31,164 nt of DNA from a virus: positions 1 to 31,164 of IMG/VR virus record IMGVR_UViG_3300011115_000651; one strand, given 5' to 3'. The position numbers and the translations under genes were made by a program. Of the stretch, positions 28,102 to 31,164 are shown piece after piece. The notes beneath the pieces were generated by a model. The model was not told the origin of the DNA. It saw only the letters and a program-made list of their open reading frames with translations, and ran no database searches. How positions within the stretch are numbered: the first letter of the stretch is position 1; every line of letters starts with the position of its first letter.

Positions 28102-28272
28102 TTATTGATTGATTATTATTTCGTTTAAAGAAGCACCCATAAATTCTTCTATGGTATGTGTTGGTTCTACATTTACTTCTACATATTCCCAATTTCTATT
28201 TTGGATATGTCCTAAATATTCTTGTGAGATTATCATCTCTATTCCGTTTGCTGTTAGTTTATAGTTGTTCAT
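28102..28272 (-). CDS. Small hypothetical protein
   Basis: A 56-residue frame, ATG at 28272 overlapping the previous stop by one base (TAATG), ending with TAA at 28102. It reads MNNYKLTANGIEMIISQEYL, WEYVEVNVEPTHTIEEF, GASLNEIIINQ: strand and helix pattern of a small folded protein. Translational coupling to the lectin-like gene supports it. No family recognised. Confidence 0.6.
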   Translation of the reverse strand: MNNYKLTANGIEMIISQEYLGHIQNRNWEYVEVNVEPTHTIEEFMGASLNEIIINQ

Positions 28273-28994
28273 TATCTTGCATTAAAGATATTATAATTTT
28301 GAGTAATATTAGCACCACTCAATACAGATGGATATACCAACCATGCTACTAATTGACCACTACCTTCATATCCAATCTTTACAGTTTGATTTGTTGGAGT
28401 AAATAAAGTTCTATTTATTCCATTATTTTGTGAATTAACAGATGTTGTATTTACATAATATTGAGAGTTGTTTGTACCATCATTAGTTCCTGAAAAGAAT
28501 GTAAATATATTTTGAATATTAGTTCCTGCATTAGCATCATTATAAGCTCCACCACCAGAAGTACCAGCTGCACCACCCCAATATTGTTGATACACACCAC
28601 TAGATAACGGCCATCCTGTATCAATTGCTAATATCATACCATTATTATTTGCTTGTCCACCAATTGCAGGATATGGAGGAGTTGTGCCTGATGTTATTTT
28701 ATAATATGCTTGAACAGTATATGCTGATGGGAATTTACCACTATATGAAATATAATTAGATGAATTAGTAGTTAAAATACCACCCTTTGTTGCAGAACTA
28801 TATGTAGGTGAACCTACAAATGTTGCAGTTGGGCCACTATTTCCACTTACATCATAAACTGATGTTCCACTACCTGGATAAGAAGCTGCATTACCAAAAT
28901 CATATATTACATATGCACCTGCAACATAGTTTATTGTCGGTGCAGCTGCAGTGGTTACTATCTTTCTATTAAATCCAAAGTTTTGAAATATCAT
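28272..28994 (-). CDS. LamG or ConA-like lectin domain protein
   Basis: A 240-residue protein, ATG at 28994 directly after the fibre stop. After a short N-terminal part the sequence follows a jelly-roll lectin pattern: YVIYDFGNAASYPGSGTSVY and DVSGNSGPTATFVGSPTYSS, then GGILTTNSSNYISYSGKFPS, AYTVQAYYKI, later TVKIGYEGSGQLVAWLVYPS and the end LSGANITQNYNIFNAR. Domains of this kind bind sugars and occur at phage tail tips, so a receptor-binding partner of the fibre is likely. No signal peptide. Carbohydrate specificity cannot be told. Confidence 0.72.
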   Translation of the reverse strand: MIFQNFGFNRKIVTTAAAPTINYVAGAYVIYDFGNAASYPGSGTSVYDVSGNSGPTATFVGSPTYSSATKGGILTTNSSNYISYSGKFPSAYTVQAYYKITSGTTPPYPAIGGQANNNGMILAIDTGWPLSSGVYQQYWGGAAGTSGGGAYNDANAGTNIQNIFTFFSGTNDGTNNSQYYVNTTSVNSQNNGINRTLFTPTNQTVKIGYEGSGQLVAWLVYPSVLSGANITQNYNIFNAR

Positions 28995-31164
28995 TTATAT
29001 CATGTTTAATGTTGATACTACGAATGGAACTCCAGTTGATACTGCTACAATAGATAAAACATCTTTCTTACCACTTCCTGCAGTTGCTGAATATGCACTA
29101 CCTGATGGTTGTAACATAGTCGGTGCTAAAGAAGCAGATGAGTTTGTACCTGTTGTAATAACCAATGTTGCACTTACTCCTGGTTGAACATTTGATGCTG
29201 ATATATGTGTTGTTGCAGTACCCGCTAATGTCAAAGTAAAATAGTTACCTAATGATAAATCCATAGATGCAGTATTAGATGTAATAGACATTGATACTAC
29301 ATTTCCAAATGCACTACCCGTTAAGGTTAAACTACCTGAAATATTTTGATTACCTCTAAATGTATTACTACCCGTTGTTGCGAAACTTCCAGTTGCTGAT
29401 ATTAAACTATTTACTTTTGCATCATTAGATGATGTATATGCGTTAAATGATGCAGTAGTTAGTAATTTTTCTATTCCTAATACATTTATTTCATTACCCA
29501 TACCACTATGGTTTGTACAATAATAATATAAAGGTGTAGTTGTATCGTATCCTACTTCTATTTGTATAAAGTTTGAACCACTTGTTACACATGTTGTGTA
29601 TTCCGTTGGCCCGTTTGCTGTTGTTGAAAACTTAAATGGATGACTACCTACAATACCTGATAAATCAAATCTATATTTTGGACCTGGTACGAAAGATAAT
29701 TTAGGTTGATTAACACCATCTATTATATAATAATTTGAACCATTATTAGTTACTATTGCAGTTACTACACTTTCAGTAGCCGATGCAGTAAATTGATTAA
29801 GATTAGTTACTGAAGTATTTAAACTCGCAGTAGTAGTATTTAAATTACTTATAGATACCAATGCCGATGCACTAAATGTATTTAAGTTACTTACTGATGT
29901 GTTTAAACTTGCAGTAGTTGTTTCTATATTGTTTAATCTACTATTTGTAGAAGATGTATATGCGTTAAAAGATGCAGTTGTTACTAAACTACCAGTATCT
30001 ATTGGTGTTGCTGTTACACTTACACTAAATGTAGATGTGTCACCCTTTGTAAAAGTAATTGTATTTCCAACCGCAGATGCAGTATATAAAGATAAACTAG
30101 CACTTCCAAAAAGAGAAGCAGTAGCTGAATTTAAATTAGTTACTGATGTATTTAAACTTTGAGTAGTCGTATTCAAATTACTTATTGATACTAATGCAGA
30201 TGCTGAAAAAGTATTTAAGTTATTTATTGAAGTTACTAACGATGCAGTTGATTGAGATGCAGTGAATGTATTTAAAGCACTTACTGATGTATTTAAACTT
30301 GCAGTAGTCGTATTGATATTTGCAATAGATGTGTTTACACTTGCACTATTTACTTCTAATGCAGTAACTCTCTGGTCATTACTTTGTGTGTATGCGTTGA
30401 ATGATGATGTAGTTACGAAAGTACCTGCTGAACCACTCACATCAGGAATGTTTACACTAAATTGAGTTGTATTACCTTTTGTAAATGTTAAGTTTCTAGT
30501 ACCCGTATCAAATGATGCAGTTACTAATGCTAAACTTGCAGATGTAAATAAACTTGCAGTAGCTGAATTTATATTAGTTACACTTGTATTCAACGATGCA
30601 GTAGTAGAATTAATATTACTTATAGACACTAATGCAGATGCAGAAAATGTATTTAAGTTAGTTATTGATGTTACTAAACTTGCAGTTGATTGAGATGCAG
30701 TGAATGTGTTTAATGCAGATATAGATGTATTAACCGATGCACTATTTGTATTAAGAGCATCTATACTAACTTGTTGAGATGCAGAACTTGCATTCAAATT
30801 ACTTATAGACACTAATGCAGATGCACTAAATGTATTTAAGTTAGTTATTGATGTTACTAATGATGCAGTTGATTGTGATGCAGTATATGTGTTTAATGCA
30901 TTTATACTAACTTGTTGTGATGCAGAACTTGCATTCAAATTAGTTATAGAGATTGCAGTTGATGCAGTGAAAGTATTTATATTACTTACCGATATATTCA
31001 ACGATGCAGTCGTAGTATTTAAATTATTAATTGATACCTGTGCAGAAGCAGTAAAGGATTGTAATGATGCAGTTGCCTGATTTAAATTACTGATATCAAC
31101 TACACTACCTGTTGCAACTGTTACATTAAAAGTAGTGTTATTACCCTTTGTAAAAGTAATTACA
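28995..31164 (-). CDS. Repetitive tail fibre with cupredoxin-like domain
   Basis: Main part of an 807-residue fibre that starts at 381 and crosses the circle join; bases 31038-31164 repeat its 1-127 segment. Residues of roughly 50-545 are short tandem repeats of 13-15 residues (LNTFTAS, VSISNLN, TASLNTSV), interrupted by three copies of a beta-type module ending ITFTKGxxTxFxVxV and by SFNAYTxS motifs, as in trimeric fibres. Residues 547-648 form a cupredoxin-like domain with H593, C634, H637 and M640 (motif CTNHSGM). The C-terminal 130 residues (GNQNISGSLTLTGS, SMDLSLGNYF, QPG) resemble the end of the fibre at 21042-22520. The stop touches the ATG of the downstream lectin gene. The role in host binding is inferred from position and architecture. 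Confidence 0.85.
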   Translation of the reverse strand, partial: VITFTKGNNTTFNVTVATGSVVDISNLNQATASLQSFTASAQVSINNLNTTTASLNISVSNINTFTASTAISITNLNASSASQQVSINALNTYTASQSTASLVTSITNLNTFSASALVSISNLNASSASQQVSIDALNTNSASVNTSISALNTFTASQSTASLVTSITNLNTFSASALVSISNINSTTASLNTSVTNINSATASLFTSASLALVTASFDTGTRNLTFTKGNTTQFSVNIPDVSGSAGTFVTTSSFNAYTQSNDQRVTALEVNSASVNTSIANINTTTASLNTSVSALNTFTASQSTASLVTSINNLNTFSASALVSISNLNTTTQSLNTSVTNLNSATASLFGSASLSLYTASAVGNTITFTKGDTSTFSVSVTATPIDTGSLVTTASFNAYTSSTNSRLNNIETTTASLNTSVSNLNTFSASALVSISNLNTTTASLNTSVTNLNQFTASATESVVTAIVTNNGSNYYIIDGVNQPKLSFVPGPKYRFDLSGIVGSHPFKFSTTANGPTEYTTCVTSGSNFIQIEVGYDTTTPLYYYCTNHSGMGNEINVLGIEKLLTTASFNAYTSSNDAKVNSLISATGSFATTGSNTFRGNQNISGSLTLTGSAFGNVVSMSITSNTASMDLSLGNYFTLTLAGTATTHISASNVQPGVSATLVITTGTNSSASLAPTMLQPSGSAYSATAGSGKKDVLSIVAVSTGVPFVVSTLNMI
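29478..29780 (-). other. Cupredoxin-like domain within the tail fibre
   Basis: This covers about residues 547-648 of the fibre. The motif PGPKYRFDLS is followed by GSHPFKFS (H593), and later by LYYYCTNHSGMGN (C634, H637, M640). A distant His followed about 40 residues later by C-x2-H-x2-M is the type-1 copper ligand pattern; the short loop spacing is that of amicyanin. Related domains occur in some marine phage virion proteins. Metal binding itself is inferred. Confidence 0.7.
29800..31037 (-). repeat. Degenerate tandem repeats coding for fibre shaft
   Basis: This stretch, continuing into 130-240, consists of degenerate 39-45 base units that encode xVSIxNLNxxTAS-type segments. On the plus strand they show as recurring gatgcagt...gtatttaa words. 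The close copies could recombine or be collapsed in assembly, so the repeat number may not be exact. Confidence 0.8.
31038..31164. repeat. Terminal overlap, right copy (circular contig)
   Basis: Exact second copy of bases 1-127. Removing one copy leaves 31,037 bases. Genes near either edge should be read across the join. Confidence 0.93.

Follow-up and report, generated by a model that had tools for sequence, protein, structure and literature searches.

The locus analysed here raises the question whether a domain embedded in a fibre-like protein of a marine-type phage is a cupredoxin with a usable type-1 metal site and, if so, what a metal ion would do in the virus particle. The window (the whole stretch of DNA that was analysed, i.e. 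the 31,164 nt of IMG/VR record IMGVR_UViG_3300011115_000651) carries a minus-strand frame (31163-28995) which stays open for 722 residues and passes beyond the right end. The relevant features are listed below, with residues counted from the window edge.

28995..31164, minus strand: fibre-like protein, 722 readable residues (repeat shaft, cupredoxin domain, then about 150 residues)
29782..31164, minus strand: Ser/Thr/Asn-rich repeat shaft; 8 copies, 63-100% identical, of a 104-nt unit; Pfam DUF16 match
29478..29771, minus strand: predicted cupredoxin domain, residues ~465-562 of the readable frame (AlphaFold2 and Foldseek)
29640..29642, minus strand: putative ligand 1, His508 (in GSHPF), just before a strand (translation and AlphaFold2 model)
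29589..29591, minus strand: Cys525, an extra cysteine; the column is Gly in 101 of 113 relatives
29517..29519, minus strand: putative ligand 2, Cys549, which closes a strand (translation and AlphaFold2 model)
29508..29510, minus strand: putative ligand 3, His552, in a loop (translation and AlphaFold2 model)
29499..29501, minus strand: putative ligand 4, Met555, in the loop directly ahead of the last strand (translation and AlphaFold2 model)

The fibre-like protein and its surroundings

The repeats, together with the DUF16 match, suggest that the first part of the protein is a fibre shaft. The fibre label is based on these repeats and on relatives of the protein; the matches to PHROG tail-fibre families are carried mainly by the cupredoxin domain. 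The domain is placed between the shaft and about 150 further residues, i.e. it is internal and not at the very tip. Only three histidines are found among the 722 readable residues, and the HxH motif is absent. The protein encoded just downstream of the fibre (28272-28994, 240 residues) gave no significant match in Pfam, PHROGs or the phage records.

The translation of the domain reads ...GSHPFKFSTT...PLYYYCTNHSGMGNEI..., with 41 residues from His to Cys followed by C-x2-H-x2-M (steps of 3 and 3). The initial annotation, which had proposed an intact type-1 copper ligand set in a tail fibre, placed it correctly on the DNA: 29478-29780 encodes the His, Cys, His and Met on the minus strand, and both the spacing and the amicyanin-type loop length that it gave are exact in the translation. 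Its residue numbers (H593, C634, H637 and M640) are 85 too high, since counting from the window edge gives 508, 549, 552 and 555, and the window lends no support to the offset. As judged from the alignments, Cys525 is not a family feature; the closest relative, contig L001, also has Gly at this position. The domain of that contig is 93% identical to ours while its preceding shaft is only about 31% identical, a contrast which is as expected for an exchangeable module.

Elsewhere in the window are genes for several tail-type proteins, for a terminase and a portal, and for proteins that resemble a head protease and a DnaD replication protein. The portal shares 35% identity with its counterpart in P12024S/L, two phages of the flavobacterium Nonlabens, and the terminase is nearest to those of Bacteroides phages, relationships from which we infer that the host is probably a member of the Bacteroidota. 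The cupredoxin domain itself was not found in P12024S/L when phage records were searched by tblastn with the window query.

Conservation of the four putative ligands

A first set of homologues had been chosen partly with the YCTNHSGM pattern and was biased toward the ligands, so that the case for conservation is based on two other sets, chosen with patterns confined to the sequence that separates the first His from the Cys and hence blind to the ligands. In the first ligand-blind set, the four residues were kept in 81 of 82 evaluable domains, the exception (L132) having lost two of them together (His to Asp and Met to Leu). The second and more divergent set gave 60 out of 61, a count in which four late-starting rows were read by eye and one row cut by a contig end was left out; its exception, L291, has lost three ligands. 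Everything that was fetched amounts to 252 distinct complete domains, of which 246 have all four residues. The initial annotation had named free variation of His, Cys and Met among homologues as an outcome that would speak against it; the residues do not vary in this way.

The exceptions follow a pattern of their own. All six lack two, three or four ligands, and loss of a single ligand was never seen. Among 110 non-redundant complete domains, the His, Cys, His and Met are complete in 105; the five affected rows compare with 16 expected if losses were independent, and none of 20,000 permutations reproduced the observed grouping, although the test overstates independence because the members of the family are related. 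At the sequence level, ligands are kept whole or dropped whole, the pattern to be expected of a functional metal site. Degenerate copies were seen in long repetitive proteins from Verrucomicrobia MAG contigs (L182/L197 and L181), where none of the four ligands is left.

Seven columns are invariant in an alignment of 14 members that are 25-69% identical to the window domain: F42, H51, P52, Y90, C92, H95 and M98 (domain numbering). Four of the seven are the ligands. The proline directly after the first His is found in 108 of 115 domains, a position where the plastocyanin-type set has an invariant Asn. Multicopper oxidases are known to have a Pro at this place, in their HPFH motif. A nearly invariant Pro instead of Asn means that the second shell of the putative site will differ from that of plastocyanin.

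Predicted fold and relation to copper proteins

The domain was modelled with AlphaFold2 from a 28-sequence alignment (A1), with a mean pLDDT of 84.7 and a pTM of 0.78. A second model was made for a divergent branch of the family (branch 2) found on viral contigs, from alignment A7, and reached a pLDDT of 95.4 and a pTM of 0.87. In both cases the prediction is a Greek-key beta-sandwich of the cupredoxin type, and in both Foldseek ranked cupredoxins first with a probability of 1.00. The best matches of the window model in the PDB were all cupredoxins (rusticyanin, nitrite reductase, AcoP, plastocyanin, amicyanin and pseudoazurin), rusticyanin being the best for the window model (E 5e-4) and for branch 2 (E 1e-4). 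With VIA-align, the window model gave Z values up to 8.6, which is modest taken alone; the best match of the branch-2 model was the N-terminal domain of 2dv6 (Z 11.4, 2.0 Å over 93 residues, 23% identity).

The four residues sit where type-1 copper ligands would be expected. In the window model, H51 precedes the strand 53-56, C92 ends the strand 88-92, and H95 and M98 come ahead of the strand 99-104; ligands and strands are arranged in the same way in the branch-2 model. This is the strand order of type-1 sites, with a His before a middle strand and the Cys, His and Met around the end of the next-to-last one. The models thus agree with the initial annotation both on the cupredoxin fold and on the completeness of the ligand set. 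The pattern goes beyond chance because the ligands are among the most conserved columns of 115 non-redundant domains and because AlphaFold2 and Foldseek assign the domain to the cupredoxins. As far as predicted structures go, the structural reading is right, and it is far better backed than one sequence allows.

Relationship to copper proteins was harder to detect by sequence. Direct searches of the PDB and Pfam with the single domain returned no match, and only family profiles succeeded. Compared by hhalign, the broad family profile (A6) and a plastocyanin-type set (A5) matched with an E of 5e-6 and a probability of 86, the His, Cys, His and Met being aligned. Copper proteins made up 16 of the 20 PDB sequence matches of the family profile (best E 0.031); these matches are weak one by one but mutually consistent. 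Pfam PF00127 (Copper-bind, gathering cut-off 21.2 bits) matched neither the window domain nor any part of the whole record, and the best relative had an E of 0.017. The phage domain is therefore like the plastocyanin, amicyanin and pseudoazurin of PF00127 in its predicted fold, in the order of the four residues and in their alignment by hhalign and HMMER, and it has in common with amicyanin the length of the C-x2-H-x2-M loop; it departs from them by a score under the cut-off, by Pro in place of Asn, and by being embedded in a virion protein whereas PF00127 proteins are free electron carriers. The best structural matches of the models, rusticyanin and the N-terminal domain of the three-domain copper nitrite reductase 2dv6, belong to a respiratory or enzymatic context and are only about 14-24% identical to the phage domain in sequence.

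One oddity was revealed by the narrow A1 profile, which weakly matched antibody heavy chains in the PDB (best E 0.07) and raised the possibility that the domain is Ig-like, with its YYC motif of the immunoglobulin type. We judged these matches to be due to chance and find this reading barely credible: plastocyanins are the first matches of the broader profiles, cupredoxins come first for the two models with Foldseek as well as VIA, and the second conserved Cys that an Ig disulphide needs is absent from the family alignments.

Spread of the domain and possible roles of the site

Searching by tblastn, the domain was found in 173 phage records with the window query and in 359 with the branch-2 query. 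Nearly all carriers are Synechococcus or Prochlorococcus phages, to which pelagiphages and methylophages are added. Where the matches fall on annotated proteins, these are tail fibres, proximal fibre subunits or gp9 (the baseplate wedge tail fibre connector), which bears out the remark in the initial annotation that similar domains exist in other marine phage virion proteins. BFVD gave 58 structural matches at E < 0.001 in similar kinds of proteins. Also matching the model there were two giant-virus 'beta-sandwich proteins' (A0A481YVH3 and A0A481Z7Q7, from Marseillevirus LCMAC201 and Pithovirus LCPAC304) and two cyanophage proteins annotated with a peptidase S8/S53 domain (V5URI3 and A0A0E3F583). 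The position of the domain varies among 84 non-redundant phage copies: it is C-terminal in 33, internal in 28 and N-terminal in 9, the remaining 14 being cut by a contig end. Some proteins have two or three copies. PHROG 677 (gp9), 30742, 693 and others are families of phage virion proteins that contain the domain by sequence, but they are named for the tail or virion alone and none is annotated as cupredoxin or metal-binding. No description of a cupredoxin, plastocyanin-like or copper-binding domain in phage tails was found in the open-licence literature, a scope which leaves novelty unproven. The superfamily is a known one whose presence here had gone unrecognised: no curated family or paper was found that names the domain a phage-tail cupredoxin.

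Secreted-looking bacterial proteins carry the domain as well, for instance with laminin-G (L189) or fasciclin (L191) domains, and mostly keep the four ligands. In genomes of the Verrucomicrobia phylum set, short proteins (L193 and L194) combine a copy having intact ligands with a PEP-CTERM-like tail, and proteins of about 430 residues in genomes from the class of a Pelagibacteraceae assembly (L205, L206 and L207) have two tandem copies, likewise intact. Across 101 genomes from the phylum of one Epulopiscium single-cell assembly, the domain was found in that assembly alone; this match and several on short marine MAG contigs are probably phage sequence.

We favour, with a probability of about 0.6, the view that a cupredoxin serves here as a beta-barrel module of a phage fibre, that its type-1 site (His-Cys-His-Met) is complete, and that the site takes up a metal which stabilises the module. 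The fibre would be produced and would fold in the cytoplasm of the host, and its four residues would take up a metal ion mostly after release into seawater. The metal would most likely be copper, which is preferred on account of the ligand set, with zinc from the host cytoplasm as a possibility. Bacterial cytoplasm controls copper tightly, and for this reason loading probably comes after release. Once bound, the ion would link the Cys/His/Met loop with the His that precedes a strand at the same end of the sandwich, and this link would stabilise a virion module that is exposed at the surface and serves in adhesion or docking; electron transfer is not part of the proposal. To judge by the ligand pattern, a metal ion is probably bound in these virions. 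Stabilising an adhesion module appears the likeliest role, as it is the most economical one for a module that serves fibres, baseplate connectors and bacterial adhesin-like proteins. Against this proposal, the Pro which follows the first His in place of plastocyanin's Asn indicates that the site is a non-standard one.

That the fold occurs in virions is known from cyanophage PSS2. Its ORF080 (gp080; L299:2992-3330), the one copy for which presence in particles is established here, is a stand-alone copy of 113 residues which has lost the His, Cys and His, and the product was detected by mass spectrometry in purified particles (PMC2784084). The fold can thus serve in a virion without the site. 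It may be asked, then, whether the domain works metal-free in virions as a plain beta-sandwich, its ligands persisting merely as parts of the folding core. The family profile does find copies without ligands (PSS2 gp080, L291 and three bacterial ones); yet, although the domain can exist in this form, retention of all four in the great majority of copies and the grouping of losses argue against the metal-free view, which we regard as possible but rather doubtful.

Other roles for a metal ion were considered. Iron has been reported in the tip of the T4 gp37 fibre, and a Trojan-horse role has been proposed for marine phages (PMC11705849). By analogy with this hypothesis for HxH tail fibres, fibre-bound copper, or mimicry of a copper carrier, might dock the phage on a metal-uptake receptor of the host, and the presence of the domain in fibre and gp9-type proteins is in line with such a function. 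A metal site in a tail fibre is proposed in both cases, but the T4 gp37-type sites of the 'Ferrojan horse' hypothesis use HxH ligands whereas the ligands of the window fibre are others. In addition, the domain is also found in baseplate connectors and is often internal (28 copies, against 33 at the C-terminus), about 150 residues follow it in the window fibre, and nothing links it to a receptor; docking of this kind seems unlikely. A redox-active site, either for electron transfer or for protecting the surface of the particle from reactive oxygen or copper stress, must also be weighed. Blue copper proteins transfer electrons through the full type-1 ligand set, which is present here. Type-1 centres alone are not known to be catalysts, and no gene for a redox partner was recognised among the window proteins searched, so that we hold a redox role to be more improbable still.

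If the stabilised module that we favour does hold copper, then a second and tight metal site would be present in the particles of a large set of marine phages, which takes in pelagiphages and, in the collection that was searched, several hundred records of T4-like cyanophages. A hypothesis on phages and the trace metals of the ocean has already grown out of the presence of iron in tail fibres. The domain occurs in cultured phages such as P-SSM2 and S-CAM8, with PSS2 gp080 as a natural ligand-loss control. A bolder extension, for which we would give long odds, is that the fibres and baseplates of abundant marine phages are copper-loaded, each domain holding one ion and each particle many, and that this copper is used in adsorption and forms part of the strongly complexed copper of seawater.
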